This document shows, piece after piece, positions 7,894 to 49,130 of a stretch of DNA of 64,000 bases (position 1 is its first letter; each line of letters begins with the position of its first letter). A program made the translations under genes and the position numbers. The DNA is from Dioscorea cayenensis subsp. rotundata (lineage: Eukaryota > Streptophyta > Magnoliopsida > Dioscoreales > Dioscoreaceae). A model generated the notes under the pieces. The model saw nothing but the letters and a program-made list of their open reading frames with translations. It made no database searches and was not told the origin of the DNA. Location of the stretch: assembly GCF_009730915.1 (NCBI RefSeq), contig NC_052489.1:30435916-30499915 (forward strand). The letters run 5' to 3'.

Positions 7894-7915
7894 TTGGTGT
7901 CGACATTCATCTACC

Positions 7916-9110
7916 GTATATTTTTTCTGAAAGCTTTACTTTTTTTTAATATAAAGTAAATATAACAGTGTTTGCGTTTTAGCCAACGAGTTATCATTCC
8001 AATACATTTTTTTTTTCCTTTATTTGTATTTATTTATTATAATAAATTAGATAAATTATAATTTTATTTAAAAAACTAAAGTATGTCACGGACCTGATGA
8101 GGCAGCACCCAAAAAACATTACGAAATAAATATTTGTCGAGTTTATCCCATGCATAGGCATATATGTGTCCTTAACCTTTTTTTTTTAAAGGGGGCAATT
8201 ATCACATACTTGTAAAAAAAAACTAAAATAAATCTTCACATATATTTTACTTTATTTTTCTTTTTATTTTTGTGAAATATTTTCTTAATAATAAAACTTT
8301 TTTAATTTAAGTGCCTTGATAACGAACAATTAAGTTTAATTACTCTGCTAACATAGGGTTCTTTGTTTTGTTGAAATCCTATGCTTTAGAAAGAAAAAAA
8401 AACTTTAAAAAACTCTAAATTTGGCATCCCAAGGAAAAAAACCATTATTTTCTTATTAGTTTATTGAAAAATATTAATCAAAGACGGAAGAAAACAGTGA
8501 ATTACCAATTATTGGTGTTATTATATTTTCTTATATGCTAATATGAATAAGAACACATGATAAAAACATTTTGAATAAAATATTGAAGTTGTCCATTATA
8601 AGGTTTATAGTTTAAAATAACACATATTTATTTTTCACAGAATTACTGTTTAGATCTTTTAATAAAACAACAAAACTCATAGATGTTAATGGACATGCAA
8701 AAGGAAAAAAGAAGACAAGAAAAATAATTTCCCCAAGAAAAGCCAAAAGCTGAGGAGATACACAATGGCCAACCAAGGTGCCCACAAAAAAAGGGGCATT
8801 ATTTTTGTATGTTATAATAATTTTATGAATAATCATAGTGTAAAAAATTGTCCTATATACCGAGATAAACCATAAAATATGTCACATGATTTCCATCACA
8901 ATTATTAATATTTCATAATAATTTAATAAGAATGAGTCTATTATTCATCACCATAAAAGGAGACCCCCCTCCATTATTTCCATGCAAAAATCATCTCCTT
9001 CTTCATTTTTGTTTCTATTTTTTTTAAAAAAAATAATAATTTATAAATATATTTAAATTATAAGACACTTGAGAGCCGTTAGAAGAGAAAGGAAAAAGAG
9101 CAAAGAAAGG
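7916..9110. other. AT-rich intergenic region; upstream region of the first ABCC gene
   Basis: No gene seen. From about 8870 onward the sequence resembles the stretch upstream of the second ABCC gene (starting about 33,340): both contain TTTCCATCACAATTATTA, and both reach the ATG through a T/A-rich leader. The similarity marks the left edge of the duplicated segment. The rest is low-complexity AT-rich DNA. Confidence 0.6.
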
Positions 9111-12100
9111 ATGAGGTTATCCTTTGAGGCACAGCCATGGATGACCTCGCTCTCATGCTCTCCATCTCAAGCTTCCACTCTCTTTCAATGGCTAAGCTTT
9201 GTATTCCTATCACCATGCCCGCAGAGGATGCTCTTCTCCATCGTCGACGGGCTGTTTCTCCTCGTGCTTTTAGGTTTCGCCATCCAAAAGCTTATAGTAT
9301 TGTTCCGGCGAAGGAGTGGCACGACGGAGGAGGAGAAGCCGTTGCTGGCCAAGGCGCAGCAGCGGCAACAGCAGCCGTTTTTGACCACGATAAGGTTTAC
9401 GGTGGGGTTGGTCGTCGTCGGGATAGTCACCGTCGTGTATGGTGTAGTCCTCGTGGTTGCCGTCTTCGTGCTTGGCTCCAAGCCTGAATGGCTTCTCATC
9501 GAGTCCCTTTTCCTTGTTCTTCAGTTCCTCTCCCATCTCGCAGCCACCGCCGTCGTTGCTCACGAGAAACGATTCCGAGTGTCAGTACACCCACTCACAC
9601 TCCGGCTTTACTGGTTCGTGAGCTTCATTGTCTGTGTTCTATTCTCAATCTCATCTATCCTCCGACTCGCCGGCGGGAACCCAATCAAGCCGGATGACTA
9701 CATATCGCTGGGTATCCTCCCTTTCTCTCTAGTTCTCCTCGTGCTTGCTGTCAATGGAGACACCGGTGTTGTGGAGGTCAACGCCAACTCCAGCGGCCGG
9801 GAGAGTGAACCAGGAGTTTGTATCACCGGCTACGCCAAAGCATCGATCATCTCACGAGCGACATGGACTTGGGTAAACCCACTCCTGGCCAAAGGCTACA
9901 AATCCCCAATTAAAATGGAAGACGTGCCAGGGCTTGCACAGGAGCACCGGGCTGAGAAACTCTACCAGCTTTTCCAAAGCAACTGGCCGCGTCCTGCGAG
10001 CCGCGCGAACCACCCTGTTCGCACAACACTCCTCCGCTGCTTCTGGCCCCAACTCCTCTTCACCGCCTTCCTCTCCATCCTCCGCCTCTGCGTCATGTTC
10101 GTCGGCCCAACCTTAGTCAAGAGGTTCGTCGACTTTGCGAGCGGTAAACGCAGCTCTATCTACGAAGGCTACTATCTCTGCCTCATCCTTCTGGCAGCCA
10201 AGTTCTTCGAGGTCCTTTGTTCCCATCAATACAACTTCCAGTCAGCGAAGCTCGGCATGATGATCCGCTCCACCCTCATAACCAACCTCTACCGTAAAGG
10301 TCTCCGTCTTTCCTGCTCCGCCAGGCAATCCCACGGCATCGGCGTGATCGTCAACAACATGGCTGTGGACGCACAGCAACTGTCCGACATGGTGCTTCAA
10401 CTGCATTACATCTGGCTCATGCCACTGCAAGTCGGCGTCGCTATCGCCCTCCTTTACTTGTACCTTGGTCCCTCCGTCATCACTGCCACTGGCGCCGTTG
10501 CAGGCGTCATCGTCTTCATCGTCTACTGCACTCGTCGGAACAACCTCTTCCAGTACTTCCTCATGGGCATGCGCGATAAGCGCATGAAAGCCACAAGCGA
10601 GATGCTCAACTACATGCGGGTCATCAAGTTCCAAGCTTGGGAGAATCACTTCAGTAGCCGGATTCGGAAGTTCCGAGAGGGCGAGTTCGGCTGGCTTTCC
10701 AAGTTCATGTACTTCACCTCCGGCAATACAATCGTCCTATGGTGCGCTACAGTCGTCATCTCCTCCCTCGTCTTCGCCACCTGCGTCGCCACCGGGGTTC
10801 ACCTCGACCCTGGTCTCGTCTTCACGGCCACCTCCTTCTTCAAGATCCTTCAAGAGCCAATGCGGAACTTCCCGCAAGCTCTCATCTCTGTCTCCCAAGC
10901 CATTATCTCGCTGCAACGCCTCGATGTCTTCTTGACCAGCGCCGAGCTCGATGAAGCCGCCGTCGAGTACGTCAGCGGCAGCAACGTCGCCATCGAAATC
11001 CAGGCCGGTAACTTCTCTTGGGATGATGAGAACCGCACGCCATTTCTCAAAGACCTCAACGTAAAGATCAAGCGCGGCTCCCTCTCCGCCGTCGTCGGCA
11101 CTGTCGGTTCCGGCAAGTCCTCTCTCCTCTCTTGCATTCTCGGCGAGATGCACAAAGTCTCCGGAAAGGTATTTGCTTTCTTTCTTTCTTTCCTGTTTCT
11201 TTGTTTTCGTTTTTTCGATTTCCGTTTTCCAAAACTCGTGCCTGTTTTCGCCTTCGTCCCCGCAAGAGGTAATATATATATATTCACACGTGCATACATT
11301 ATATATATATATATATATAAGTGTCCTTTGTAGCAAATTTTTTCCCAAATTATTCTTCATCTTGCAAAATTTTAAAAAAAAAAATCAAATTATTTTAATG
11401 AATCTGAAACAACTATATTTTTTCCAAAATTTATTAAATAGTCCTAAGAAAAAAAAATGTTAGTACCAGAATGAATTTTTTTTAAAAAAAATATTCATTA
11501 ATTTTGTTAATCTTAAACGATATTTATTCGAGAATGGAACGTGAACGCACTGAATAGGTGAGAGTATGTGGGAGCACTGCGTATGTTGCCCAAACTGCAT
11601 GGATTCAGAATGGAACTATCCGAGAAAACATCTTGTTTGGAATGCCAATGAATTCAAGTAAATACAAGGAAGTTCTTCGAGTTTGTTGTTTGGAGAAGGA
11701 CTTGGAGGTGATGGAGTTTGGAGACCAGACTGAGATTGGAGAGAGAGGGATTAATCTGAGTGGTGGTCAGAAGCAGAGAATTCAACTCGCCAGGGCTATT
11801 TATCAGGACTGTGATGTTTATCTACTTGATGATGTCTTCAGTGCTGTTGATGCTCATACTGGTTCTGAGATCTTCAAGGTTTTCATTCTTTTTTCCTTTC
11901 TCCTGTTTTGTATGCTTTTGATATTACTAGTTCTTAGATTTTGATTCATTGGTGGTGGTGGTGGTGGTGGTGGTGGTGTTGGTTTGTAGGAATGCGTCAG
12001 AGGAGCTCTCAAAGAAAAAACAGTCCTGCTTGTTACTCACCAAGTTGACTTCTTGCACAATGCTGATTGCATCTATGTGAGTAGTCTCTGATTTCTGCTT

Positions 12101-15100
12101 GTTTATTATTTATTTGTTTATTTTTTTTTTTGAATTATTGGTGAAATTGAATCATGTAACAGGTTATGCGAGATGGGAATATAGTAGAAGCTGGAAATTA
12201 TGATGAATTAGCTGCTTCCGGACCAGAATTTATGGGTCTTGTTGCAGCTCATGAGAGTGCCATGGAGCTTGTAGAGCAGGGTGCAAAGCAAGACAATGAC
12301 CAAAACTCCGGGCCAGAGCAAGCTGCTAAGTCGAATCAGAAACAGTCAGCCGGCAACAATGCGCAGGAAGGATCAACGAAAACAGAGAAGGGAAGCTCGA
12401 AACTCATCAAGGACGAGGAACGCGAGACCGGCCGTGTCAGCTGGAGTGTCTACAAGACTTATGTGACTGAAGCTTGGGGATGGTGGGGAGTGATTGCAGT
12501 CTTGCTGGTTTCACTGGCATGGCAGGGCGCTAACATGTCATGTGACTACTGGTTGGCATATGAAACATCAGCTAAAAATGCGGCTTCCTTCAGTCCCTCT
12601 TTTTTCATTGAAGTATACGCAGGCTTAGGGGCTCTTGCTGTCATTCTAGCGATAGTTCGAGGTTTCCTTAATGCCTACCTGGGGCTCCAGACTGCTCAAT
12701 TATTTTTCGAACAGATCCTCAACTCTATACTGCATGCTCCAATGTCATTCTTTGATACTACACCTTCAGGAAGGATTCTAACACGGGTAATCCTCTTCTT
12801 GAAGCCTCTAGCTTTTAAGCATTTTGTTTCAATCAAGTGATTCAGCACTTATGCGAGTTCTTTTTTTCTGCTGTTTTTTTTTTAGGCATCATCAGACCAA
12901 ACCAACATCGACGTGTTCCTTCCCCTCTATATGGGAGCTACTGTTTCAATGTACATCACTGTGCTCACCATCATCGTTGTTACTAGCCAGGTTGCTTGGC
13001 AAACCTTCATAGCTGCTATTCCATTAACAGCACTGAACATTTGGTACAGGGTAAGCTCGCAGTTTAGCCCGCGGCTAATACAATACCTTTTGGTATAGCG
13101 AAGTCGAATTAATATGATCTGATCATGGTTTCTTTCAGGATTATTACCTTGCGACATCTCGGGAGCTAACTCGTCTTGATTCAATCACAAAAGCCCCCGT
13201 TATTCATCACTTTTCTGAGACAGTTCAGGGTGTGACCACAATTCGATGCTTCAAGAAGGAAGCTAGATTTTCCCAAGAAAATGTTAACAGAGTTAATTCA
13301 AGTTTGCGGATGGATTTCCACAACAATGCATGCAACGAATGGGTAGGATTCCGGTTAGAATTATTTGGTTGCATTGTCGTCTGCATTGCTGCTTTGCTCA
13401 TTGTCATGCTTCCTGCAGATATTATCAAACCAGGTACCTCTTCAGAAGCTGTTCTTTTTTTCTGCTTTCTATATAGTTCAATCAAGTATCACACTAGTAT
13501 AATGCATTTGTATACAATACTCACTCAGCAGCTTTTGGACGTAAAAATTAGCTGTAAGTTCAGAAATAGCCATTCAAGGATTCGTAGGCAATTGGCTGAT
13601 ACCTTATAATGCTTGCTCAACTATATATGACACAAGGATTGTTCCTGGTTTGCATGTGGTCAGTGGTAACTGACATGTGTTTCTTGCGATGCAGAGTATG
13701 TAGGCTTATCCCTGTCCTACGGCCTCAATTTGAATACTGCATTGTTTTGGGCTGTATGGACCAGTTGCTTCATTGAGAATAGGATGGTCTCGGTTGAAAG
13801 GATAAAGCAGTTCACCAAAATTCCTTCTGAATCAGCATGGGAGATCAAAGGAAACCTTCCTTCTCCAAATTGGCCCACACGAGGAGATATTAGTATTCAA
13901 GACTTGAAGGTGAGTTACTCTGGTGTTCTGCCAGGAACTACTCACTTGGGATGTAACTTCAGGTCTATTTGTGATGTGTCAGATTACCATTACCATTCTG
14001 GACTTCAACTGTATAACTTGGCTTGGCAATTTTTTCACAGGTTCGATACCGGCCGAATACTCCTTTGGTTCTCAAAGGCATCTCACTCAATATCCATGGT
14101 GGAGAGAAAATTGGAGTTGTTGGTCGAACAGGGAGTGGAAAAACAACACTGGTACAAGTTTTCTTTAGACTTGTTGAGCCTTGTGGTGGAAGGATTGTAA
14201 TTGATGGAATAGACATCTGCACATTGGGACTTCATGATCTCAGATCACGCTTTGGTATCATACCTCAAGAGCCTGTTCTCTTTGAAGGAACAGTGCGAAG
14301 CAACATCGATCCAATTGGAAAATATTCAGATGATGAGATATGGCAGGTATGAACCATTTAGTTTCTTTCGTCCATGTCTTTTAGCCTTCAAAACTTGATC
14401 AGTAGCTGATCAGCTTCCTCGAAATTACAAACACTAGATCACTCCAAGCTCTCAACCTGTATTTACTAGTACTGTGTTATCATTTCTGCTGTTTCATTGT
14501 TTTCCATTCACAATGCTGTAACTTCTTCATGCCTGCCATTGTGGTAAACAACATGTGTCCTTGCAGAGTCTTGAGCGTTGCCAACTTAAAGATGCAGTAA
14601 TTTCAAAACCCGAGAAGCTTGACGCATTAGGTACATCTCTCTTTCACACATACACGACAGGCACTTTCCTGCAAATTTATTGAAATGCTTGTTCGTAATT
14701 TGTGACCTTCCTTCTTTCCATAGTTGTTGACAATGGGGAGAACTGGAGTGTGGGACAGAGACAGCTTCTTTGCCTGGGCAGAGTAATGCTAAAGCGCAGC
14801 CGAATCTTGTTCCTGGATGAGGCAACTGCTTCAGTGGATTCTCAGACTGATGGAGTGATTCAAAAGATCATCCGTGAAGACTTTGCATCTTGCACCATTA
14901 TCAGCGTTGCTCACAGAATACCGACAGTCATGGACTGTGACCGAGTGTTGGTTGTAGATGCAGGTAAGCAGCAAACATCTTTTATGTCAAATTAAAATAT
15001 GTTCGAATTTGAAACTCAAGAGACACACTTTGCTTGTTTTACTCTGAGCAGGCTTGGCAAAAGAATTTGACAAACCAGCAAACCTGATTGAACGCCCGTC

Positions 15101-15152
15101 TCTCTTTGGTGCATTGGTTCAAGAGTACGCAAACCGCTCCAGTGAGCTGTAG
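9111..15152 (+). CDS. ABCC-type (MRP) transporter, ABCC4/ABCC14-like, copy 1
   Basis: Full-size ABC transporter of subfamily C, an ATP-driven membrane exporter of organic anions and conjugates. Eleven exons join in frame: 9111-11168, 11558-11878, 11990-12076, 12163-12786, 12886-13050, 13139-13433, 13695-13909, 14041-14346, 14567-14630, 14724-14963, 15052-15152. The product is 1491 residues, the usual length. An N-terminal TMD0 (about 30-200) precedes TMD1. NBD1 has Walker [10 protein letters not shown] (663-671), signature LSGGQ (753-757) and Walker B LLDD. TMD2 is followed by NBD2 with GRTGSGKTT (1283-1291), WSVGQ (1386-1390) and ILFLDE. The ATG at 9111 was chosen because [15 protein letters not shown] aligns with the start of the second copy; the open frame extends upstream only to a TTG. 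All catalytic motifs are intact. Closest remembered relatives are Arabidopsis ABCC4 and ABCC14; the substrate is unknown. Confidence 0.93.
11281..11318. repeat. TA microsatellite in ABCC copy 1 intron 1
   Basis: Two short TA runs flank CACACGTGCATACAT within the 389-base intron. They are absent from the corresponding place in the second copy. Only a marker-type repeat. Confidence 0.7.
11950..11980. repeat. GGT microsatellite in ABCC copy 1 intron 2
   Basis: A run of about nine GGT units lies just before the exon 3 acceptor. The second copy has only two or three GGT units at the same place (38,607-38,619), so the tract expanded after the duplication or shrank in the other copy. Confidence 0.8.
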
Positions 15153-15457
15153 ATAACAATGAAGAAAATGCGATGCTGACTCACTGATGACCTGGTGGTT
15201 GAATACCTTTGAGTTATTAAGAATTTTGCCAGTGAGTCGCAGAGTGATGATCATGAACATTTGGAGGCATAATCGTGAGGGAAACAAATAATGTTCATGT
15301 CATACTAAAGTCTATTTCTTTTCTACCAGAAAATTCTATGTTTGTGATCTGAACTTCAAAATAAGTTTACACAATTGTGTGGAACTCCAGATAATGATGT
15401 TTTTAAATTGGATGGTCGAAGGGCAAGAATAAGGGCCTTCCACTGTAAAATTAGTCC

Positions 15458-15463
15458 AATAAA
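15458..15463 (+). terminator. Poly(A) signal of ABCC copy 1
   Basis: AATAAA in the context TCCAATAAAATT, about 306 bases after the stop. The second ABCC copy has the same signal at 42,095-42,100. Conservation between the copies supports it as the 3'-end signal. Confidence 0.5.
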
Positions 15464-15628
15464 ATTAGAGTTTGCTTATTTTTTTTAACATTTATTCAAC
15501 TGCATGGCATCTCAATACAAGTAGCTTGATTTTACATACAACACAGAGAGTAACTTGCTATAATTACAAAACAGGGAAATTTGACCAGAAATAAAACAGA
15601 TAACCAGAGAGTTGGAAATGAAAGTGTA

Positions 15629-17762
15629 TCAAATACCCATTAGTGATCGGCATTGTGACTCCCAATGCTCCTTAGCCTGTTGTACCCGCTCAATTCTCTC
15701 AGTTCGAAGCCGTTTTTTCCAGTAATCAGGGCAGCTGTGAAAGATGCGCAACATTATTGTTTGTTGTTTAAGGGATACAAGAAGACATATATTCCTATAA
15801 ATTATGAACCTTTGGCTTAATAAAAAGCTCAGCTCATCAAGGTTTACAGCACCCTTGTGTACTCCTGACTGCATTTATAGAGGTTTATGTTATATTCAAA
15901 GAAAGTAAGGTTTGTAGATAATCTAAAATGGGTTCAATGAGAAATCTTGATCATTGAAAAGTTCAACCTTTTATGTCTGCCTTCATCTATGGACAGTCAT
16001 ATACAAAACAGATTCAGCAAATACAAAAAAATGGCAATTTACCCGTCGACATAGAGGGCACTGTGTTTTGGAGTCAGCAGTGTCGAGACCATCGATGATC
16101 GTGACCGACGCAGCAGAACAAAAGCAAATGTAGCAGAAGATATGGCCACATCTTAAAGCAACCGGATCAAATACAGTCTCCTGTGAACAAAATCAAATAC
16201 ATTGATCTTCATGGTGATGGTAGCATAGCATGATTCAACATCAAGTGATACGGTTTGATCAACGAAAACATTAATTAAGCTTGAACAATTCTGGATACTA
16301 AAACAATGATGAAAATTAACGTGAAGCAAAGGTTATTCAATTAATACATAAAGAAATGGTTCAGTTGATCAGGTTGAAATTTTATATGTTTGAAGAGAAT
16401 GAGTAAAATAGTTTATTCAATGAATAGATCAAGTGATAAGGTTTGATCAACGAAAACATTAAGCTTCAACAATTCCAGGTACTAAAACAATGGTGAAAAT
16501 CAACATGAAGCAAAGGCTATTCAATTAATACATAAAGAAATGGTCCAGTTGATCAGGTTGAAATTTTATATGTTTGAAGAGAATGAGTAAAACAGGTTTA
16601 TTCAATTAATAGATCAAGTGATAAGGTTTGATCCACAAAAACATTAATTAAGCTTGAGCGGTTCCAGGTATCACGATGATGAAAATTAACATGAAGCAAA
16701 GGCTATTGATTAATACATAAAGAATAGGTTCAGTTGATCAAATTGGGACTTTTTTATATCTTTGGAGAGAACTAGTAAAACAGTTTATTATAGAAATGGC
16801 ACAGAATGACACAACAATGAAATCAGCAAAATATGCAGAACAAGTAAGGTCAACATCAGGATTCACAAAGTCAGAAGAGGGATAACTAAAGAATTAGATA
16901 CCAGGAACTCACCAAACAAATGGAGCAAGAAAGATCAATTTGAAGATTTACACGGTCAAAAAGACCATAATTGAGCATCGGTTTCCCATCATCAATGGAG
17001 AGGGAGCAATCACCAAAAAACCAAGGTGCCTCAGTGCCATGGTTTGAAGCCCTTCGCCTCAAGTTAATATAGAAAGCCAATAACTCGCAAAGCCATGGCG
17101 ATTGAAGAATCTCAAGATACATACTCTGAACTTTTGATCTAAAGATCTCACCTTTATTACAGTTATGAATCTGCAAACAGGGAGTCAACGTTGTATAAAG
17201 TTCAGAATTTTCATTGGAGTATGAAATTGAAAAATAAGAAATAAAGGACCTTATCATATTTCTTCAAGATTTTCCTTATTGCAGCTGAATTGATAACAGC
17301 GTAGGTGATCAGTTTCTTGGCTTCTTGCATCATAGTTTCACGATTATTCAACAGCTTGCTGGCTCCAAACCAAAGAATACACTTAATGGAACATGAAGAT
17401 GAATGCAGTTCAAGCAAGGTCTTAGCTTTTTCATTGAAACAACAAACAACTGCTGAAATCTCTTTGAGAAGAGACGGGAAGAAGGTGGCATCACACACTA
17501 GATTGCATACAGGTCAAAATGAGTAATAGAAATGAAAGAAATCCATATGTGAATGATATAAAATTATATGGAATTTGAGAGAGAAAAAGAAGTTACCAGG
17601 ACAATGGAGAGGAAGTGAGGTGCTGGGGTTGTGTTGGTGGTGCTGTGAACGGGATTTGGTCCTGCAACTCTTGAGTAGCCTTTTGAGCTTCTTGAGAGGA
17701 ACTTCAGGGAGACCCCTGTTGCTTCCTTGCATGTACTCCTGATACCTTTTGCAGAACTTCAT
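15629..17762 (-). CDS. BAH1/NLA-like E3 ubiquitin ligase (SPX-RING)
   Basis: Six minus-strand exons join in frame (17762-17597, 17497-17250, 17170-16913, 16180-16043, 15868-15810, 15734-15629) to give 324 residues, close to Arabidopsis NLA/BAH1. The N-terminal SPX domain starts [11 protein letters not shown], with basic helices [12 protein letters not shown] and [11 protein letters not shown] that in SPX proteins bind inositol pyrophosphates. A C3HC4 RING runs from CSIC (220-223) through RCGHIFC to CPLC (265-268), and the conserved tail ends [19 protein letters not shown] ligases ubiquitinate plasma-membrane phosphate transporters and affect nitrogen-limitation and salicylate responses; that role here is inferred from family. 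It is convergent with ABCC copy 1, about 475 bases apart. No miR827 target-like sequence was seen in the near upstream region. Confidence 0.92.
16240..16795. repeat. Three tandem copies of a ~187-base unit in a BAH1-like intron
   Basis: The phrase ATCAAGTGATA recurs at 16240, 16428 and 16613, followed each time by the same order of phrases (AACATTAA.TTAAGCTT, ATGAAAATTAAC, AATACATAAAGAA, AGTTGATCA). The period is 185-188 bases. All lie in the intron between exons 3 and 4. The pseudogene at 45.1 kb retains only one degraded unit. Confidence 0.85.
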
Positions 17763-20545: not shown

Positions 20546-20561
20546 ATTGCCTCCGATGAGC

Positions 20562-20579
20562 AAACCCTAACCCTAAACC
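20562..20579 (-). promoter_or_regulatory. Telo box in the TCTP leader
   Basis: AAACCCTAACCCTAAACC lies 17 bases upstream of the TCTP start codon. The AAACCCTAA telo box is a known element of plant genes for translation components. Upstream of it on the minus strand is a pyrimidine-rich stretch (about 20,585-20,630) of the kind seen in such leaders. A similar element precedes eL22 at 55,076. Confidence 0.7.
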
Positions 20580-20653
20580 TAATCGAAGGAACCGAGAAAC
20601 AAGAGCAAAGAGGCGAGGGAGGCGAGAGAATCACTCTCGATGGCGGACAAGGT

Positions 20654-20663
20654 CTATTTATAG
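20654..20663 (-). promoter_or_regulatory. TATA box of TCTP
   Basis: CTATAAATAG on the minus strand, about 109 bases upstream of the ATG. It leaves room for a leader of about 75-80 bases that includes the telo box and the pyrimidine tract. Confidence 0.65.
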
Positions 20664-20699
20664 GCGAGCATTGGAGAGCCCTTATCGCCGCCGAAGTAG

Positions 20700-22434: not shown

Positions 22435-22442
22435 TGTGTTCA

Positions 22443-23597: not shown

Positions 23598-23605
23598 TGT
23601 GTTCA

Positions 23606-37000: not shown

Positions 37001-40000
37001 GAATAACCTAATGAAGTGGTTGGGAAGAAGAAAAGGAAAAAAGAGAAATAGTTAGCATGAAAATAACTTTGTGGTTTAAGACAACTAGCTAGTGGGTAAC
37101 AAGAAGGAATATAATTAGTTAAGAAATAAATATGAGCTAATTGGTCTACCAAAGATGAATTAAACTAATATGCTCTAATTAAACTTGTAAGGAAAGAATA
37201 TGATGTGACTAACTAAAAAATAAATATAATCTAATGAGATAGATTACATTAACCTGTTTTAACTGAACTAGTAAAGAAGGAATATAAGCAGGTAAGAGAT
37301 AAATATGAGCTAATGAGTCTAATGAGGATGGATTGCACTGATGGTTAGTGGTGCTAACCTAGCTGATAAGGACTATATAATGACTAATTGAGGAAATTTA
37401 ATATTATAAAGTGGAGGTTCTAAAATATAAAAATTTAATTTTAAACAAATTATATTAAATAGTTTGGTAGTTAAGATGTGAAGATGTAATCAATTATGGT
37501 TTGAAATTGTACATTTGCAATTTTTTATAATGGACCACTGATCAGCTCATGATTTTTACTTTTGCAATTGTTTATAATGGACCACTGATCAGCTCATGAT
37601 TTTTACTGAACTAATAAGTAAGGAATATGACCAACTGAGCAAGAAATATGAGTGATTGGACCTAATTACAAGGATTGACCAGCCAATAGCTTAAACTGAA
37701 ATGATAAGGAAGAAATATGAACAATTAAGAAATAAATACGGAAACTTCATTTATTGTCAATGTATTATGTCATTAAAAATCAAACATATTAATTAAAACG
37801 ACATGAGTAATCCAATGGCCATTTTCTCTAGTGTTAATTATTTGTTGTCTTCATTTGAAAATCTTTTAAAAATGAGAGATCTTGAGGTCACCTATAAAAT
37901 TACAAGGACTTCAAAGTCAATTGAAATTATGGCAGGGTTTTTTAAGATTATTTATTTTATACATGCATGCATAGTTGCATACATACCGCATGGTGTTTGT
38001 CTGTTTTTTGTTCTCTGTTTTTTAATGGAATGGTTTATCCACCTTTTCACGAAAAAAAAATAATAATAATAATAATAATACCGCATGGTGCATATACAAC
38101 CTCGAATAGAAGATATTATTTTCATACTACCCTCCCTGAATTTATTACTTATTCTTATGTTACTGGTATCACTACTGATACAACTACTATTACGTTTGTG
38201 AACAGGTGAGAGTATGTGGGAGCACTGCATATGTTGCTCAAACTTCATGGATTCAGAATGGAACTATACAAGAGAACATCCTGTTTGGAATGCCGATGAA
38301 TTCAAGCAAATACAAGGAAGTTCTTCGAGTTTGTTGTCTGGAGAAGGACATGGAGATGATGGAGTTTGGAGACCAGACTGAGATTGGAGAGAGAGGGATT
38401 AATCTGAGTGGTGGTCAGAAGCAGAGAATTCAACTCGCCAGGGCTGTTTATCAGGACTCTGATGTTTATCTACTTGATGATGTCTTCAGTGCTGTTGATG
38501 CTCATACTGGTTCTGAGATCTTCAAGGTTTTCATTCTCTTTTTCTTTTTTTTTTATTTTCCTATTTGTATGCTTTTGATATTACTAGCTCTTAGTTCTTG
38601 CTTCATTGGTGGTGGCGGTTTGTAGGAATGCGTCAGAGGAGCTCTCAAAGATAAAACAGTCCTGCTTGTTACTCACCAAGTTGACTTCTTGCACAATGTC
38701 AATTGCATCTACGTGAGTAATCTCTGATTTCTGTTTATTATTTTTACCATATGAAGTTAGAACATAGCTCTGATTTATTGCTGAATTTTTTTTTTATTTT
38801 GATAATGATTTATTGGTGAAATTCAATCACATATATAACAGGTTATGCGAGATGGGGAAATAGCAGAAGCTGGTAAATATGATGAATTAGCTGCTTCTGG
38901 ACCAGAATTTATGGGTCTTGTTGCGGCTCATGAGAGTTCCATGGAGCTTGTAGAGCAGAGTGCAAATCAAGACAACAACCAGAACTTTGAGCCTGAGCAA
39001 GCTGCTGCATTGAATCAGAAACAGTCAGCCGGCAACAATGAGCCAGAAGGATCACCGAAAACAGAGAAAGGAAGCTCTAAACTCATTAAGGAGGAAGAGC
39101 GTGAGACAGGCCATGTCAGCTGGAGTGTATACAAGACTTACGTGACTGAAGCTTGGGGATGGTGGGGAGTGATAGCAATCTTGCTGGTTTCACTGGCATG
39201 GCAAGGCGCTCAAATGGCATGTGACTACTGGTTGGCATTTGAAACATCAGACGAAAATGAAGCTTCCTTCAATGCGTCTTTGTTTATTGAAGTATATGCA
39301 GGCCTAGCCGCTGTAGCCATCATTCTTGTGACAGTTCGAGCTTTCCTTGTCGCCTATCTGGGGCTCAAGACTGCTCAGATATTTTTCGAACAGATCCTCA
39401 ACTCTATACTGCATGCTCCAATGTCATTCTTTGATACTACACCTTCTGGAAGGATTCTAACTCGGGTAATCCTACACATTCTCCTTAAAGCCCCTTCCTT
39501 TTAAGCATTTTCTTTCAATTAAGTGATTCAGCACTCATGGCGTTCTTTTTTTCTGTTGTTTTTTCAGGCATCATCAGATCAAACCAACATTGATCTGTTT
39601 CTTCCCTTCTTCGTGGGGCTGACTGTTTCAATGTATATCACTGTGATCAGCATCATCATTGTTACTGGCCAGGTTGCTTGGCCAACATTCATTGCTGTTA
39701 TTCCATTAGCAATACTGAATTTTTGGTACAGGGTAAGCTTGCAGTTTAACCCAGCTAATATGACCCTTCTGGAATAGTGAGGTTGAATTAATATGATCTG
39801 ATCATGGTTTCTTTCAGGGTTATTACCTTGCAACATCTCGGGAGCTAACTCGTCTTGATTCAATCACAAAAGCCCCCGTCATTCATCATTTTTCTGAGAC
39901 AGTTCTCGGTGTGACCACAATTCGATGCTTCAAGAAGGAAGCCAGATTTACCCAAGAAAATGTTGACAGGGTTAATTCAAGTTTACGGATGGATTTCCAT

Positions 40001-41801
40001 AACAATGGATCCAATGAGTGGCTAGGATTCCGGTTAGAATTAATTGGGAGCTTTGTCCTCTGCGTCACTGCTTTGCTCATTGTCATGCTTCCTGCGAATA
40101 TTATCCAACCAGGTACCTCTTGAAAAGCTCTCTTTTTTTCTGGTTTCTATAGTTTGATAGCGTATCACACTATTATAGTGTACATGTTAACTTAACGTAC
40201 AGCTTTTGGACTTAAAATTAGCTGTAGGTTCAGAAATAGCCATTCAAGGACTCGTAGATGTTTGGCTGATATCTTAATGCTCAACTATAACACAAAAGGT
40301 TTTTTTGTGGTTGGCATGTTGTCTGTGGGAACTGACATGTGTTGCTTGTGATGCAGAATATGTAGGCCTATCTCTGTCCTACGGCCTCAGTTTGAATACC
40401 GCATTGTTTTGGGCTGTATGGATCAGTTGCTTTATAGAGAATAGGATGGTCTCAGTTGAAAGGGTGAAGCAGTTCACTAAGATTCCTCCTGAATCTGCAT
40501 GGGAGATCAAAGGATGCCTGCCTTCTTTGAATTGGCCCATGCGAGGAGATATTAGTGTCCAAGACTTGAAGGTGAGTTACTCTGATGTTCTGCTAGGAAC
40601 TTAGGACGTCGCTTCAGGTCAATTTGGTGATGTATCGGATTACCATTCTGGACTTCAACTGTATAACTTGGCTTGCCAATTTTCACAGGTTCGATACCGA
40701 CCAAATACTCCTTTGGTTCTCAAGGGTATCTCACTCAATATCCATGGTGGAGAGAAAATTGGGGTTGTTGGTCGAACAGGGAGTGGAAAATCAACACTGG
40801 TGCAAGTTTTGTTTAGACTAGTTGAGCCTTCTGGTGGAAAGATTGTAATTGATGGGATAGACATCTGCACATTGGGTCTTCATGATCTCAGATCACGCTT
40901 TGGTATCATACCTCAAGAGCCTGTTCTCTTTGAAGGAACAGTGCGAAGCAACATCGATCCGATTGGAAAATATTCAGATGATGAGATATGGCAGGTATGA
41001 ATCATTTATTTTCTTTCATCCATGTTGTTCTGCCTTCTAAACTTGATCAGTAGCTGATTGACTTCCTCAAAATTACAAACACCAGATCACTTCAAGCTCT
41101 CAACTTGTATTTACTTGTATCCTGTGTTATTGTTTCTGCTGTTTCGTTGTTCTCCATTTACAATGCTGCAACATCTTCATTTCTCTCATTGTGGTAAACA
41201 ACATGTGTCCTTGCAGAGTCTTGAGCGTTGCCAACTTAAAGATGCGGTGGCTTCAAAACCTGAGAAGCTTGATGCATCGGGTACATCTCTCTTCCACACA
41301 TACACAACAGCTCTTTCCAGCAAATTTGTTGAATCACTTGTCCTTAATTTGTGACCTTCTTTCTTTCCATAGTTGTCGATAATGGGGAGAACTGGAGTGT
41401 GGGCCAGAGACAGCTTCTTTGCCTAGGCAGAGTTATGCTAAAGCACAGCCGAATTTTGTTCATGGATGAGGCAACCGCTTCAGTGGATTCTCAGACTGAC
41501 GGAGTGATTCAAAAGATCATCCGTGAAGACTTCGCATCTTGCACCATTATCAGCATTGCTCACAGAATACCGACAGTCATGGACTGTGACCGAGTATTGG
41601 TTGTAGATGCAGGTAAGCAGCAAACATCTTTTATGTCAAACTAAAACATGTTCGAGTCTGAAACTTAAAAGGCACACTTTACCTGTTTAATTCTGTGCAG
41701 GAATTGCAAAAGAGTTTGACAAACCAGCAAACCTAATTGAACGCCCATCTCTCTTTGGTGCGTTGGTTCAAGAGTATGCAAACCGCTCCAGTGAGCTGTA
41801 G
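34028..41801 (+). CDS. ABCC-type (MRP) transporter, ABCC4/ABCC14-like, copy 2
   Basis: Paralogue of the gene at 9111. Eleven exons: 34028-36103, 38206-38526, 38626-38712, 38842-39465, 39568-39732, 39818-40112, 40357-40571, 40689-40994, 41217-41280, 41373-41612, 41701-41801. They join to 1497 residues. Every exon after the first has exactly the length of its counterpart; exon 1 is 18 bases longer. The start [16 protein letters not shown] fits other ABCC4/14 proteins. NBD1 has GTVGSGKSS (669-677) and LSGGQ; NBD2 has GRTGSGKST (the other copy has KTT), WSVGQ and ILFMDE. All catalytic motifs are intact, so both copies look functional. Intron 1 is 2102 bases against 389 in copy 1 because of inserted repeats. 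The gene lies between the RING and BAH1-like pseudogenes. Confidence 0.93.
36441..36812. repeat. Tandem 191-base duplication in ABCC copy 2 intron 1
   Basis: CTTGCAATGACGAACATTA occurs at 36441 and again at 36632. The following stretch is repeated nearly unchanged (ATCACACTTGCTTGCAAGCT, ATTCTCTCTCTA, TTTATTCTATTTCTATTCAT). The few differences suggest a recent event. Confidence 0.85.
37070..37740. repeat. Diverged ~90-base tandem repeats and a 48-base doublet in intron 1
   Basis: Phrases of the form GGAATATAA..AGAAATAAATATGAGCTAAT recur four or five times at roughly 90-base spacing (37,070-37,340 and 37,610-37,740). Within this, TTTATAATGGACCACTGATC and the bases around it are present twice, 48 bases apart (about 37,513-37,607). 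None of it is present in the short intron 1 of the other copy. Confidence 0.65.
37996..38077. mobile_element. Short 5'-truncated retroposed insertion with A/TAA tail
   Basis: An 82-base insertion is flanked by perfect 13-base direct repeats ATACCGCATGGTG (37983-37995 and 38078-38090). It ends in a run of A followed by several TAA units. A target duplication plus a 3' A-rich tail is the mark of LINE-driven insertion. The body is too short to name its source. Confidence 0.65.
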
Positions 41802-42094
41802 ATCACAATGAAGAAAATGTAATGCTGACTCACTGATGGCCCGGTGTTTGAATACCTTCGAGTTATGGAGAATTTTGCCAGTGAGTCATAGAGTGATGAT
41901 CATGAACATTTGGAGGCAGAATTATGAGGAAAACGAAGAATGTTCATGTCATGCCAAAAGTTAATTTCTCTTTCTGAACTTGTGATCGAAAACTACAAAA
42001 TATATTACACAGCGTATGTAACTGCAGATGCTGATGTTCTTAAGTTTTATGTTTGAAGGGCATGAATAAGGCCATTCCACTGTTATAACAGTCC

Positions 42095-42100
42095 AATAAA
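42095..42100 (+). terminator. Poly(A) signal of ABCC copy 2
   Basis: AATAAA in the context TCCAATAAAATT, 294 bases after the stop and matching the signal at 15,458 in the other copy. Confidence 0.5.
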
Positions 42101-43069
42101 ATTGTGTTTGTGTATTTTTTATTACGTATATTCATGCGTATGGTATCTCAGTACAAGTGGCTTGATTTTATAACACAGGGTAGCTTGTTATAGTTGCAAA
42201 CAGGGCAAGTGATCATTTTGGATCAACGAAAATACTAGGCCAGTTCAGGTCCATTTCTGTAGCTGAGCTAGATCTACTTCATTTATTTATAACTAAACTT
42301 AGGCTAACAGTTTTCATTCTGGAGACTAATTCAATAGGCAAATAGTTAACTTGCTTATGTATGCTTTATCCTTTTGCCTATTGAATTAGCTTTTAAGCGT
42401 GTGTTGGATCGTGTTTTCTACCATATGATTTTTTTAATAATTTTTTTATTTTTGCCTCTATCCTTATCTTCAAATAGCTATTTTTGGACTGTGAGCTGCT
42501 CGAATCCAATGGATCTATTTCTGATTATTGGATAAGCTACCCTTATATACATACCGAGGTTCTTTTAAATTAATACTACTGCTCATTCTTCCTACTTCCA
42601 TTGAAAACTCTAGTAGGCATCTTTAGATTTTCTTTCTCAATCTCTTACTTTGCTCTTTATACTTGAGTGACACTTGAGACTGATTTTACAGAGATGTTCT
42701 GATCTTTGAGTTAGCTATGTCCTAATGACCAGAGTGACACCCGAAATTCCTGCACGAAGGGATGAAATTGGTTTTAAAGTAGCGTTTAACATGTCTAAAC
42801 TTAGGCTTAGAGTTTCAATTTGAATTTGTTGTTTTAATTAATATTTGCATGATATAATCTAATTATTTGTTCTAACAATCTAAGACTGATTTCTTAGTTC
42901 TTGTTTTAAATTTGGTTCTATTCATATCCTATCATTAGTGCATTCACTATTTTAGAAGGAAGCCATATATAACGTGATTAGCCCAATTATAAAAAACAAC
43001 ATCTAGATTCTCACTACTCTGCTAAGTTAGAATAAGCCACTAGGTTGTATTTGAGTTTTTAGGAAGAAA

Positions 43070-44130
43070 TTGAGACATGATGGTCCTAGCAAAAGGATTC
43101 AAGCAGAAGAAAAAGCATGGATCACTTTAAAACCTACCCTCTTACTACTCGTACCACCACTATTAGAATCATGCTTACCCTTGCTTCTGCTTTCAATTTT
43201 GAAATCCATAAGGACTAATAAAAGATTTACATGGCTCAATTGGAAGGTTTTGTTATTCTTGAATAAGAGTATAAAATTTGGAAAATCGTAATCTTTCTTA
43301 TTGCCTTAAGCAAGCCCCTAAGCATTGGCATACGAAGTTTGACACTACCATTAATTCTTGTGGATTTATTGTGAACAAATATTATAGATGTGTCCATTGC
43401 AAACATGCAGATTGTAAATGTGTTATTATTTGTTTGTATGTTGATGGCATGCTTATATTTGCATCTAACATACACTTGATCAATGATGGTTAAAGTTTCT
43501 TATATAGTAACTAGTAAGTTTGACATGAAAGACCTAGGAGAAGTTATTGTGATTCTAGGAATCAAGTTTACTATATTAGGCCCCACGTTAAACTATCCAA
43601 ATCTTATTACACCAACAAAGTGTTAAAGAAATATCTTGATTATAAACCTATTGATATATCTTTTGATCCTAGTGCACATATTAAAAAGAACAAAGGTGAA
43701 CTTGTGGATCAGGTTGCTATGCCTAGATTATAGAATTCATCATGTATATTGCAAACAAACAAGAATTGATGCTGCTTAAGCTACAACAACCCAAATCAAG
43801 AATAACTGGTTGCTCTTGAGAGGGTTCCTAGATTATTAAATTGTATTATATCCTTTGGACCAAGGTATATTGGATTCTCTAACGTGGTTGAGGGATGATT
43901 AATGATAGGCAAAACATCTAGTGGAATAAAACTTAGTCCATAAAAGTTAATAACAATAGTCACCCTACTTTTTTGATTGGAGATCCCATGATAAAGGTAA
44001 TCTATCTAATTGGTTGATTGAGAAAGCACAATTCTTATTCGAAATGTACTTTAACCCCATTACTAGGATAAGTGCTCTCATATAGTGGTTTAAGATTTAG
44101 TTGAGCTTTTAATGAGATCAAAGACTATAC
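43070..44130 (+). pseudogene. Copia pol remnant (reverse transcriptase and downstream)
   Basis: Successive short frames follow the copia pol order. A QLEGFVIL-like piece (about 43,230) leads to the RT core at 43,300-43,490 and the DMKDLGE region at 43,520. Then come KKYLDYKPIDISFDPSAHIK at about 43,630 and scattered later pieces to about 44,130. It has at least two frameshifts and several stops and cannot encode a working polyprotein. Confidence 0.75.
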
Positions 44131-44435
44131 TTATGCAAGATATTTTACTAAATTTCTTTAGAGATCTCACCTATATGGAAATAGATGCCAAGTCACATTT
44201 GTGAGCATACACAAGTAAATTCTCTAGTAATCTCCATGAAATATTATTAAGTATAAATAATCAGTTGCATAAGATCTATCTCAACCTTAATTTTGCCTAA
44301 GTGTTGCATAAGATCTTCATCAAAGTTGAATTCTGATTTAAATGTTACAGTTAAAGACTTAATTCACTATTATTCCTATATCATTGGAAACTTTATTGAA
44401 AATCTAAAGTTCAGGTCATATATAAAGCCACCTCA

Positions 44436-44611
44436 TGTGGCGAGAGGTCAATTGGTACTTAGATCCCCTCAAAAACTCTTCGCAAGTGGTGAGAGTTTGA
44501 TTTGCTGGTGAGGGCACATTTCTAAGAGTGTGATGGAGCAATGATTGTGCACGCCCCTACTTTCTTTGGCTACCTGGCCACTCATTTGGCACAAAATAAA
44601 AAAAAAAATCT
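44436..44611 (+). mobile_element. tRNA-derived SINE with 17-bp target duplication
   Basis: Perfect 17-base direct repeats TATATAAAGCCACCTCA flank the insertion (44419-44435 and 44612-44628). The body ends in an A-rich tail (about 44,591-44,609). Near its start are matches to RNA polymerase III promoter boxes: an A-box-like GGTCAATTGGT (44446-44456) and a B-box-like GAGTTTGATTT (44493-44503) about 37 bases further on. Body length is about 175 bases. It is nested in the dead copia element, so it is younger than that. Confidence 0.8.
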
Positions 44612-45103
44612 TATATAAAGCCACCTCAAGTTATGATCTTATGAAAATCTAAATTCTTCCCTTTGCCTTTCCTGCATTTCATCTCGACTTGGTTAAATCC
44701 TTTGTTCATAGCTTCTTGTTACTGTCTTGTTTAAAATCCAAACATTCTTTCAAATTTCTCTTTGATAATCACTGTGTGTATAATCTGTTGTCTTGACTTA
44801 AGTTATGATTATAACTAGAAAATTATAAGAACTGTACATGCCCAGGCCCATTATTGTAGCTAAGCTGGATACAATTCATTTGTTGACAACCTAACCTAGG
44901 CCAACATGATTTCTGCACTTGAGAATAATCCCACATTGGAAATGAAGTAAAAAATTTCACTTGCTTTTATATGTTTTATCTTTATGTGCTTCTTCAATGA
45001 AAAACTCAGGTAGCGACCTTTAATTTTCTCTCTAAAGATCCTTGAACAGAGAAATCTAAATCAGCAAAACATGAATAGCTTGAATGAGTGGCCGGAGTGA
45101 CAC

Positions 45104-45812
45104 GAAACATTAATCAAACTTGAACAAGTTTAGGTTCTTAAAAATGATGAAAATTAACATGAACACTACAATGAACTCAGCAAAACATGCAGAACAAGTA
45201 AAGTCAACATCAAGATTCACAAATTGAGATGAGGAATTAGTAAAGAATTGGATGCCAGAAACTTACCAAACAAACAGAGCAAGAAAGATCAATCTGAAGA
45301 TTCACAGAGTCAAATAGACCATAAGAGAGCATTGGCTTTCCATCATCAATGGAGAGGGAGCGAGCAATCACCGAAAAACAAAGGTGTCTTTCGATCTAAA
45401 GATCTCACCTGGATTTTAGAACCATGAATCTGCAAACAGGGAATCAACCTTGTATAAAGTTCAGAATTAAGGGACCTAATCATATTTCTTCAAGTTCAAG
45501 ATTTTCCTTATTGCAGCTGAATTGATAATAGCATAAGTGAGCAGGTTCTTGATTTCTTTTATGAAACTTTCATAATTATTCAACAGCTTTCTCGCTGCAA
45601 ACCAAAGAATACACACTTAATCAAGCATGAAGTAGGATGCAGTTCAAGCAAGGTCTGAGCTTTTTCCTTGAAACAACAAACAACTGCTGAAATGACAAGA
45701 TAGGGGGGAAGAAGGTGGCACCACACACTAGATTAATTACATACAGAGATCAAAATGAGCAATAGAAATGAAAGAATGTACTCCTGATACCTCTTGCAGA
45801 GCAGAACTTCAT
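45104..45812 (-). pseudogene. BAH1/NLA-like pseudogene, RING half missing
   Basis: Similar to exons 1-3 and introns of the intact gene at 15.6-17.8 kb. The start-codon region survives (CAT at 45810-45812, reading MKF-like then broken), but most of exon 1 is deleted. Exon 2 is present with small indels (45,478-45,720). Exon 3 has an internal deletion near 45,388 that joins CAAAGGTGTCT directly to TTCGATCTAAAG. Exons 4-6, with the rest of the RING and the C-terminus, are absent. Upstream flank similarity continues to about 46,310. Confidence 0.85.
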
Positions 45813-45984
45813 TTACAGCCTGCTGATTGAAGAGAAACTGAAAGAAGAGCAAGAAGAAAGAAGTGGAGGAAGAAGGACTTCTGATCTACTACTCTGTCAA
45901 ATAACTGAACTTCTTCATATTTTTGGAGTTACACTCATAATGTATGTATGGACAACCCCCACTTGTTGTCTTCACAATTAATGA

Positions 45985-46012
45985 ATATATATATATATAT
46001 ATATATATATTT
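45985..46012. repeat. TA microsatellite
   Basis: A run of about 13 TA units upstream of the BAH1-like pseudogene; absent at the matching place in copy 1. Confidence 0.8.
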
Positions 46013-46314
46013 AATATTTTATATTTCCAAGAGTAGAGAACTCAAAAGAGAACACTTTTAATGAAAAACATAGAATTATAGAAACAAATTTTAATGTATA
46101 ACTCTGGCAATAACTGTGTACATATATCAATGTTTGTTTGGAGATGGAACATAATAATTGCACGTAGGCCCTGTTACACAATGAATGGAATATTTTCTTT
46201 AAATATAGATCTGTCCTTTAGTAAATTGAGATGCTTTATTAAGTTTTCAGAGCTTTCATCTCTGCCTGGCAATTGACACATGAAACCCCAATAATACTGG
46301 CTTTGTCTGTTATT

Positions 46315-46860
46315 CTAATTATTCTAATCTCAAGGCTCTCTATGATAGTGCTTTCAACTTGCCTTCATAGTATATCTATCCATTTGATAAATGAATAATT
46401 AATTTATATATATATTAAATGTGAATAAATCATGTGTCATGAAGGACACTTGTGGAGCGCAATCACAAATTTAACAACATATGTGCCCGCACACTGTTTA
46501 GAAAAATCCAATGCCAATATATCAAATGATTGTTTTTTTTTTTTTTAAATAAATAATTAATATGCATATATATATATAAAGAGTTACAATATTTTTTTTA
46601 AATCTAATTTATTTATTTATTTTTATAAATATAGACTATCCACATATTCGTTGAGAATCCAATCCTTAATTTTTAAAAGTTATATAAGTAATTTTTTTTT
46701 ACAAAATAGACAAGCCACTCATAAAATATTTTTTACAATAGGGTGAGTGCCACTGCATCAACCTATAAGGTTTAAAAAATAAGAGTTAATTTGCATGTTT
46801 TAAAAGCTTAATTAAAGCGCCTCGTGATTGGAACTCATCAGAGTCAATGAGAGCGTGCCA
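46315..46860. other. AT-rich stretch at the site of the missing TCTP-auxilin segment
   Basis: No gene. It links BAH1-flank similarity on the left to RING-upstream similarity on the right. In copy 1 the corresponding interval holds TCTP, the hAT element and the auxilin gene. Either these were deleted here or they were inserted in copy 1. Confidence 0.55.
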
Positions 46861-47029
46861 CGTAAGCACAATAGTATGTGGGCCCGCTGAAGATGATGAC
46901 ATGGCATTCAGGAAAGCAAATTAAATAGCCCGCCATTTCTCTTTCCCTTTCCTGCCTCGAGTTCATCCATCGCAAACAAGCAAATCACTCTTCTTGTTTC
47001 TTGTATTTCGATCGAATTCGCAGGCGAGG

Positions 47030-49130
47030 ATGGATCTTCAAGGCAGTGATACTCCATCAGCCGATGAGGCCACCGCTGGCACTACCTGTTCCATCTGCCT
47101 TGAGGTCGTCGACGTGGCCACCAGGACGCGGTCTATGGCCAAGCTACGTTGCGGGCATGAATTCCATCTCGGTTGGTGGAATCCCACTCTGGATTCTTTT
47201 TTCCTTAAGTTTGATTTTTTTCTGTGAATTCGTGTCGAATCCCTCATCTCTTTGTGATATCTTGGATAATTCTTGATTAGATGCTGCCTGCTTGCATTCT
47301 TTCTCGCATTTGTTTGTTTTTAAATTTACTTTTAATTTAAGAATGAGATGCTTGATCTGCTGTGATTGATGATTAATGTTCCAAGATTTATAAGAAAGGA
47401 ATGATTTTGAAATACCAATTCAAACTTTGGAACAAGATGAGTCAAGATCTTGAAGAGAAGAAAAAAGTTCTCTGTTCATCCAACACTGGTATAACTGTAT
47501 AAGATGTGTGAAGTTCTTGTCTCATTTGATGAAATAATAATCTTGGCACAAGATGAGTCAATTCCTGTGAATGGATTGTAGTTAAGACCAAACAGAGAGA
47601 ATTGGTCTTGTATCTGAATAATCATGGCTTTGTCTTTGTTTCATTATCATCTTTTTTAATTGTGATTGAAAAAGGCATTATGTAACTTGATTGTTAGTAC
47701 TTTCTGATTGGTATGTATTTTATGGCATGACTACCTTGATCTTACATCAGTATATACTTACCAATTCAGCAATCTCAGTCATTTCTGCTTCTGTCTTGCA
47801 AAATTTTCAGATTGCATTTGTTCGGCATTTGATTTTAGTGGAAAAAGGCAATGCCCAAATTGTGCAGACATCGAGGAAGGTTACTGGAACTTTACCAACC
47901 GTAGGGGGATGAGACAAAATTCTCACACTTCTCAGCCAGCGAACAGGATGGCTGAAGCTCGTCGTCGTGTAGGTCACTGTAATCCCTGTTACTCATATGT
48001 TGTCGAAGCAAGAAGTGTACCTTACGTAAACCCATTAATTTGTGTCGGCCCATATCAGTATCTTCTAGCTGGAGTTGATTTGCTGGTTCATGCTTTGTCT
48101 AGTATTCACAATTTTAAATTTTTTTCGTCTGGAGATTAAAATCTATAAGATGCTAGTATTTTTCTATTGTTTTCATTATGTCGTTTCAACATCTTCTTTG
48201 GTGAAGAGGAATAGTGCACACATAGGAAAAAAAACTAGAGAAATTCTCTTCATGATGACTACATTTTCTGGAAATATTTGCCTCATTGGTAAGCCAGTGT
48301 GCATCACAAGAAATTATTGCCCTTATCTGAATGTTTCTGTCCTGTTATGGTAAAATTCGTTTCCATGCCATCTGGCCGTGCATAGACTAACACTTCTTTG
48401 CTCCCTATTTTCTGCAGGGAAATCGAATTCCATGGTGCTCATCTTGCTTATTCCACCAGTAAGTGTGCCATAAGGAAATTTCTTCACTCATAGTTTATTG
48501 ATATATAACTTGTCTAGCCTTATTGTGTATATTTTCACCTTCATAATTGTGAAATGTGCTTGCTTCTTTACCTGATCTCCAGCAATGGGCCATGCAGCCA
48601 GGCAGTTCTCCGTAAGTATATCTTGTACCCAAAATTTAAGTTGGCATATTTGTTTGAATGCATTTAACTGATTATGAGTCTTTTTTGGACCACAAGTAAC
48701 TTTTGAGTTGAATACAATTGCTTCCTCAACAGCTATTATGATGTCTCCTGTATATGCCAATGAAGTCCATATTTCCTGGCAAGAGCCTGCTCCACATTCT
48801 ATAACCATTCTCCTAATGAATGGTGCTGATCAATGCCTACAATCTATGTAAGCGATAACTTGATGTCTAACATTGTTATGTTACCTATAGGCAATTGCAA
48901 GCATTAGTTGCTTTCACATTTCACACATCAACTATCTATCTGAATGCAGCTATGATTCTAGAACCAATGGGCAATTTGTCTCTCCAAATTTACAGTACCC
49001 GTCCAACTATCAATTTCAGACCAATGGTCAGCAGCACCATCTAAATCACATCTCCGGTGGGCTTCATGGACATGTTTCAAGTGCACTGCAGGGCATGCCT
49101 GTATGCCAACGTTGGCGGTGGTTTCCATAG
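47030..49130 (+). CDS. RING-H2 protein, RFI2-like (exons after the second uncertain)
   Basis: Exon 1 (47030-47171) begins MDLQGSDTPSADEATAGTTC. Joined to exon 2 (47811-47968) it gives a full RING-H2: CSIC, KLRCGHEFHLDC, CPNC. The start and the RING wording resemble Arabidopsis RFI2, a ubiquitin ligase in phytochrome signalling. The stretch after CPNC (ADIEEGYWNFTNRRG) is less like that family. Later exon candidates with good splice sites are 48418-48458, 48583-48611 and 48950 to about 49,130. The last has a long Asn/Gln/Ser-rich frame (TNGQFVSPNLQYPSNYQFQ) ending TAG near 49,130. No single choice of junctions keeps all of these in the most convincing frames, so the gene may be decaying or spliced differently. 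It is the fuller of two copies. Confidence 0.5.

Follow-up and report, generated by a model that had tools for sequence, protein, structure and literature searches.

A tandem segmental duplication with head-to-tail orientation lies in the window, i.e., the whole 64,000-base stretch of DNA that was analysed (C19:30435916-30499915, from a genome of 584,211,761 bases in 2249 contigs, with intron-containing plant-type genes), and the loss of genes within it is biased, being concentrated in copy 2. Very probably, a single head-to-tail duplication with one breakpoint inside a RING gene was followed by the decay of copy 2, with both ABCC genes kept. The evidence comes from the collinearity of the two copies, the two open and constrained ABCC frames, a large gap in copy 2, the gene order of a related segment on contig C6, and the RING gene crossing the edge of the unit. 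Contigs C6 (21.7 Mb), C7 (31.8 Mb), C14 (21.4 Mb), C26 (1.41 Mb) and C147 (66 kb) were brought into the comparisons. The first-pass annotation of this DNA had proposed a duplicated segment with reciprocal gene loss caught in progress; the duplication and the loss were corroborated here, and the words "reciprocal" and "in progress" were not.

Extent and collinearity of the tandem unit

The unit was delimited as follows, its edges (8831/33302 and 33253/48796) being uncertain by tens of bases:

8831..33253, plus strand: copy 1, with a length of about 24.4 kb; homology to copy 2 runs from 8831 (= 33302) to 33253 (= 48796)
33302..48796, plus strand: copy 2, shorter overall than copy 1 at about 15.5 kb
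33253..33302: AT-rich junction of the duplication, where copy 1 gives way to copy 2

The limits proposed earlier (8870..48800) are 39 and 4 bases off the ends found here. In the window self-comparison, the copies were aligned by blocks that keep the same order and strand in both genic and non-coding DNA. The collinear same-strand blocks (copy 1 / copy 2, identity) are:

8831-8955 / 33302-33430, 72%
9068-11228 / 33984-36165, 85%
11551-15579 / 38199-42208, 86%
16809-17031 / 45163-45389, 85%
17131-17540 / 45388-45776, 77%
17831-18277 / 45920-46306, 62%
29991-30031 / 46300-46341, 86%
30168-30237 / 46869-46938, 81%
30253-31475 / 47118-48250, 69%
31643-31913 / 48236-48499, 69%
33047-33253 / 48602-48796, 72%

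Far from being a diagonal limited to the ABCC exons, the collinear blocks extend over BAH1, the flank, RING and non-coding DNA. A lax self-comparison also returned off-diagonal AT-rich matches on both strands (e.g., 32246-32789 / 36346-36889, 57%, E 1.5e-12), so the weak blocks are credited by their position in the order only; the 42-base block at 29991 (E 4.5e-6), taken alone, is no stronger than these off-diagonal matches.

As a control, copy 1 minus ABCC (15600-33300) served as a query at E<=1e-5 with dust on. It gave 10 matches in copy 2, all on the plus strand among the eight matches listed, and no matches in the left flank (1-8800, 8.8 kb), in the right flank (49500-64000, 14.5 kb) or in each of the C26, C147 and C14 regions. 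The same query gave three matches on C7 at 1.81 Mb (two in a BAH1 paralogue and one elsewhere), one match on C7 at 11.86 Mb, and eight matches on C6, seven of them to auxilin and one to RING. The results clearly show adjacent units in the same orientation, collinear in coding and non-coding DNA and with outer flanks outside the repeat, which are the features of a tandem segmental duplication; the head-to-tail duplicated segment proposed by the first-pass annotation is thereby confirmed as real. No repeat common to both outer flanks was listed in the window self-comparison at 1e-5, and no Rfam match was found in the whole window at the gathering thresholds. Just left of the unit, LINE-type frames occupy the minus strand at 2777-7613, with a reverse transcriptase (PF00078) at 2777-4015 and DUF4283 at 6795-7613.

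Gene content of the two copies and of the C6 segment

The genes, remnants and gap of the unit are listed below:

9111..15152, plus strand: ABCC, copy 1; open frame of 1,491 aa in 11 exons, introns of the GT-AG type
34028..41801, plus strand: ABCC, copy 2; open frame of 1,497 aa in 11 exons; intron 1 exceeds that of copy 1 by about 1.7 kb
15629..17762, minus strand: BAH1-like SPX-RING gene, copy 1; open frame of 325 aa in 6 exons, convergent with ABCC
45105..45966, minus strand: BAH1 remnant, copy 2; exons 1-3 survive in pieces, with stops and about 100 bases deleted
42209..45104: stretch of 2.9 kb in copy 2, in place of the 3' half of BAH1 and without a copy 1 counterpart; no match at 1e-5
18564..20545, minus strand: TCTP gene, copy 1 only; PF00838, E 4.8e-54, profile positions 1-164 of 164
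24204..29673, plus strand: auxilin-like J-domain gene, copy 1 only; DnaJ at 25.3 bits, below the cut-off of 27.8; collinear homologue on C6; exon chain approximate
18277..29991: gap, i.e., sequence of copy 1 that copy 2 lacks; about 11.7 kb, or up to 11.9 kb (to 30168) if the block at 29991 is due to chance
46300..46306: gap junction in copy 2; the copy 1 ends lie about 290 bases beyond the TCTP stop and about 320 bases beyond the auxilin stop
30253..33253, plus strand: RING (RFI2-like) stub, copy 1; about 180 bases with the start codon missing, exon 2 damaged, cut at the duplication edge
47030..49127, plus strand: RING (RFI2-like) gene, copy 2; exons 1-2 with the RING motif, last part interrupted by stops; crosses the edge at 48796

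The SPX-RING gene, for which we assume the name BAH1/NLA, has a whole frame in copy 1, where the splice ends were read by eye; the Pfam scores are 27.8 bits for zf-C3HC4 (cut-off 21) and 25.6 bits for SPX, the latter below its cut-off of 27.8. Copy 2 retains pieces with stops, and exons 4-6 were not found there. BAH1 is thus intact only in copy 1, as had been claimed. A Copia-type reverse transcriptase fragment (PF07727, E 1.4e-10) was detected at 43275-43490 inside the 2.9-kb stretch without a copy 1 counterpart. The copy 1 intron between BAH1 exons 3 and 4 carries a 184-base tandem repeat (2.9 copies, 16240-16789), and a single short stretch related to it is found in copy 2 at 45105-45163.

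TCTP and the J-domain gene, which is presumably an auxilin, had also been assigned to copy 1 only, and both indeed fall inside the gap of copy 2. The gap is anchored by 17831-18277 = 45920-46306 on the left and by 29991-30031 = 46300-46341 (E 4.5e-6) on the right, the next anchor being 30168-30237 = 46869-46938 (E 1.4e-12). Since TCTP and auxilin share one gap, they need not be separate losses, and we infer that a single deletion removed both. A stretch of TCTP intron 1 (20058-20537) is a dispersed repeat with at least 20 matches outside the locus; among the matches listed, obtained at the DNA level, all are confined to this stretch, outside the TCTP exons. No literature on TCTP-auxilin synteny was found.

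The RING gene, which we take to be RFI2-like, is more complete in copy 2, in agreement with the first-pass annotation: exons 1-2 and the RING motif are present there, and in copy 1 the start is missing and exon 2 is damaged. A longer version is predicted on C6, with an unconfirmed splice chain. The C6 RING protein aligns to copy 2 at 48756-49094 (E 5.6e-9), i.e., across the edge at 48796, in an alignment that contains stops and is 31% identical overall; the homology of copy 1 ends at 33253, and there was no protein match for copy 1's own RING piece at the edge. On the right, the unit ends (33253 = 48796) within the RING gene, so that the RING of copy 1 was truncated from birth. For residues 80-215 of the C6 protein, neither copy yielded a match with E below 1, and the gene may therefore already have been broken when the duplication took place. 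Near the copy 1 stub, a stretch of about 110 bases (31255-31363) resembles C7 near 11.86 Mb (92% identity) more closely than it does copy 2.

The C6 segment was located by DNA searches with ABCC and with RING, each of which led to about 20.74-20.76 Mb of this contig. A region of 70 kb (C6:20720001-20790000) was searched, with PPR rows below 60 bits left out, and contains:

C6:20736226-20743172, plus strand: ABCC (single)
C6:20755145-20759799, plus strand: auxilin
C6:20762950-20767321, plus strand: RING, with its last part
C6:20782751-20782997, plus strand: ribosomal L22

The order and strand of these genes are the same as in the window, and L22 was the only right-flank gene of the window matched on C6. 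BAH1 and TCTP were not found on C6:20720001-20790000; when BAH1, TCTP and a condensin-like flank gene were searched at a lax cut-off in C6:20743200-20790000, the best E was 0.17 for the real and 1.7 for the reversed queries, and they were taken as not found. C6 therefore cannot polarise BAH1 and TCTP. The dS between C19 and C6 is 1.4 (NG86) or 2.0-2.1 (YN00) for ABCC and 0.76 for auxilin; these values exceed the 0.25-0.29 of the tandem pair, so that the C6 segment is older and serves as an outgroup. The auxilin gene stands between ABCC and RING on this older segment, which argues that it predates the tandem event and hence was lost from copy 2. For BAH1, its former presence in copy 2 is documented by the pieces left there. 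As for TCTP, it would have been in the unit before the duplication judging by one feature, the gap it has in common with auxilin. Compared with the window copies, the C6 ABCC has an out-of-frame base in its last exon (C6:20743330-20743460), which is either real or an assembly error.

The BAH1 pieces with stops in copy 2, and the gap of about 11.7 kb where the older C6 segment has auxilin, bear out the earlier claim that genes were lost after the segmental duplication. The whole-gene losses number three (BAH1, TCTP and auxilin), too few for statistics; all of them fell on copy 2, and a single gap covers two. In copy 1, RING was truncated by the edge of the duplication, and the middle of this gene was found in neither copy. 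The loss pattern is therefore biased toward copy 2 and does not sustain the description "reciprocal".

Conservation and divergence of the ABCC pair

The ABCC frame is open in each copy, free of internal stops, and the 10 GT-AG introns correspond between the two, so the claim that ABCC was kept twice with matching introns holds. The proteins share 1281 of 1489 aligned residues (86%; 14% differ). Walker A, signature and Walker B motifs were found in both halves of both copies, and PF00664 and PF00005 scored above the cut-off in exon 1 of copy 1, the exon covered by the Pfam scan; on this basis, the two membrane and two ATPase domains of a plant ABCC/MRP protein are present. The best PDB match to ABCC exon 1 was 9vrb, ABC transporter C family member 13 (E 2.5e-102). 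We assume that the window ABCC resembles ABCC4/ABCC14; no literature on RFI2 and ABCC4 together in Arabidopsis was found.

The tandem pair differs by dN 0.074 and dS 0.29 (NG86) or dN 0.078 and dS 0.25 (YN00), giving a pairwise dN/dS of 0.26-0.31. In a constraint-free point-substitution simulation of the copy 2 ORF, run at an author-chosen rate near half of the tandem dS, a mean of 18.8 stops was obtained, and none of the 2000 runs was stop-free. These sequence comparisons support purifying selection on both ABCC genes, and both still look functional. When the C6 ABCC was used as an outgroup (1,405 aligned codons), 71 private residues were counted in copy 1 vs. 41 in copy 2 (p 0.006), and the silent private changes numbered 49 and 54, respectively (amino-acid vs. 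silent, Fisher p 0.028). A relative-rate test by block gave p<0.05 (uncorrected) in 1 of 10 blocks; by codon position, none of the three counts was significant (p 0.11-0.29), the amino-acid total being the only significant one. This suggests that the ABCC protein of copy 1 is evolving faster, although its neighbours are intact. The data are compatible with selection for two ABCC genes. A division of roles seems rather unlikely, in which the copy 1 protein would have functionally diverged and copy 2, in the decayed segment and with its expanded intron 1, would keep the ancestral protein, this segment having outlived its other genes only because this ABCC was indispensable.

Other ABCC relatives in the genome comprise one gene on C6 and fragments on C26, C14 and C147. 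The C26 fragment (C26:1394613-1395461) covers parts of exon 1, exon 2 and intron 2, matches copy 1 at 82% and copy 2 at 75%, and seems to be a DNA-level copy derived from copy 1 after the tandem event. The stretches C14:4607430-4615000 and C147:29248-36825 are 95% alike within the compared pieces and hold the same fragment of ABCC exon 1; an allelic scaffold would explain their likeness, as would a mobile element that captured a piece of the gene.

The divergence between the copies is uneven, K being 0.09-0.24 in ABCC introns 2-10 and 0.15-0.21 in the BAH1 pieces vs. 0.24-0.52 in the flanks, RING and the gap edges and 0.48 at the start of ABCC intron 1. Under an even clock, a single event would not yield such a pattern unless conversion or constraint had played a part. 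Within ABCC, windows of 120 codons give dS values between 0.07 and 0.45. Four-fold sites differ at 75/311 positions in exon 1 vs. 50/325 in the rest (p 0.007) and at 3/48 positions in exons 2-3 vs. 122/588 in the rest (Fisher p 0.013), and the longest identical four-fold run comprises 40 sites (11656-12192, p 0.015). The tests were picked after viewing the dS windows; given such weak post hoc p-values, we do not claim gene conversion within ABCC, and the data give hints of a local conversion at 11656-12192.

With a synonymous distance of 0.25-0.29 between the ABCC exons, the reading of fractionation "caught in progress" is not supported. In the consulted portion of a published Dioscorea study, the median Ks is 0.163 for D. 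alata-D. dumetorum and 0.389 for D. alata-D. zingiberensis, divergences within the genus reach back about 60 My, and the median Ks is 0.869 for the delta whole-genome duplication, with a value of 1.21 reported for tau (PMC9010478). On this partial basis, the tandem dS falls between the two species values, which would very roughly place the event at 40 My if rates were even. The auxilin dS of 0.76 is near the delta value, the C19-C6 ABCC dS is above that of tau, and judging by auxilin, the C6/C19 pair may belong to such a duplication layer.

Origin of the locus and comparison with known systems

Taken together, the results point to an ancestral block ABCC-BAH1-TCTP-auxilin-RING, with a single ABCC, that would have been duplicated once, head to tail, the unit thus forming in one event. 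One breakpoint would lie upstream of ABCC and the other within RING, apparently in the last coding exon. The RING of copy 1 would have been a fragment from the outset and would have lost exon 1 later. In the decay of copy 2, most simply one event took TCTP and auxilin together, and BAH1 probably lost its 3' half, what is left of it now adjoining sequence that contains a retroelement fragment. The two ABCC genes would have been retained under purifying selection, with the copy 1 protein changing faster, and the keeping of two may reflect selection.

It is quite unlikely that a complete unit was duplicated and that each copy independently lost different working genes. The RING start is gone in copy 1 and kept in copy 2, and BAH1, TCTP and auxilin show the reverse, just as this scenario would have it; however, with the unit edge inside RING, copy 1 never had the whole gene, RING may have broken earlier, as residues 80-215 of the C6 protein are unmatched in both copies, and the other three losses all concern copy 2, two of them within one gap. 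A late insertion of TCTP and auxilin into copy 1, such that copy 2 never had them, is very unlikely: the gap does hold both genes whole with about 300 bases beyond each stop, as an insertion could, but auxilin lies between ABCC and RING in the same orientation on the older C6 paralogue, an argument that speaks for auxilin only.

The low K of ABCC introns 2-10 (0.09-0.24) relative to the flanks and RING (0.24-0.52), together with the four-fold differences of exon 1 and the identical run of 40 sites, would suit a duplication of ABCC alone, with the other pieces arriving separately, or a later homogenisation of ABCC. We consider this highly improbable, given that the blocks over BAH1, the flank and RING keep both order and strand, that the window flanks contain no matches, and that local conversion requires no separate origin; a separate origin of the non-ABCC pieces appears largely excluded. 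Finally, two haplotypes or a mis-joined repeat might have been placed in tandem by the assembly, which counts 2249 contigs and has near-duplicate stretches on C14 and C147. Such an artefact is extremely improbable, as the copies differ at 14% of ABCC residues, with a dS of 0.25-0.29 and large indels, and alleles would be far closer.

The favoured course, i.e., one duplication cutting RING and the subsequent decay of copy 2, is an event of an ordinary kind. The locus offers a worked, datable example in which an older paralogous segment of the same genome separates loss from gain. The apparent reciprocal loss is partly due to the position of the breakpoint; tallies of reciprocal loss after tandem duplication should first exclude genes cut by unit edges.

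As for the retained genes, the window ABCC proteins are like the plant ABCC/MRP full transporters in their length of about 1,500 aa and in the nucleotide-binding motifs of both halves, and no difference in kind is apparent from the sequences. In the consulted portion of a Drosophila survey, tandem duplications with a breakpoint inside a gene are described (PMC4503668). As far as that portion goes, the unit studied here is alike in that its edge cuts a gene, one daughter is partial by construction and the other genes are copied whole, and it differs in that the event is old, took place in a plant and is known from sequence alone. The biased gene loss after the Dioscorea delta duplication, as presented in the consulted part of PMC9010478, resembles our case in that the loss affects mainly one of the two copies; in the window, however, the two copies stand in tandem and derive from a 24-kb unit, and two of the three losses fall in a single gap.
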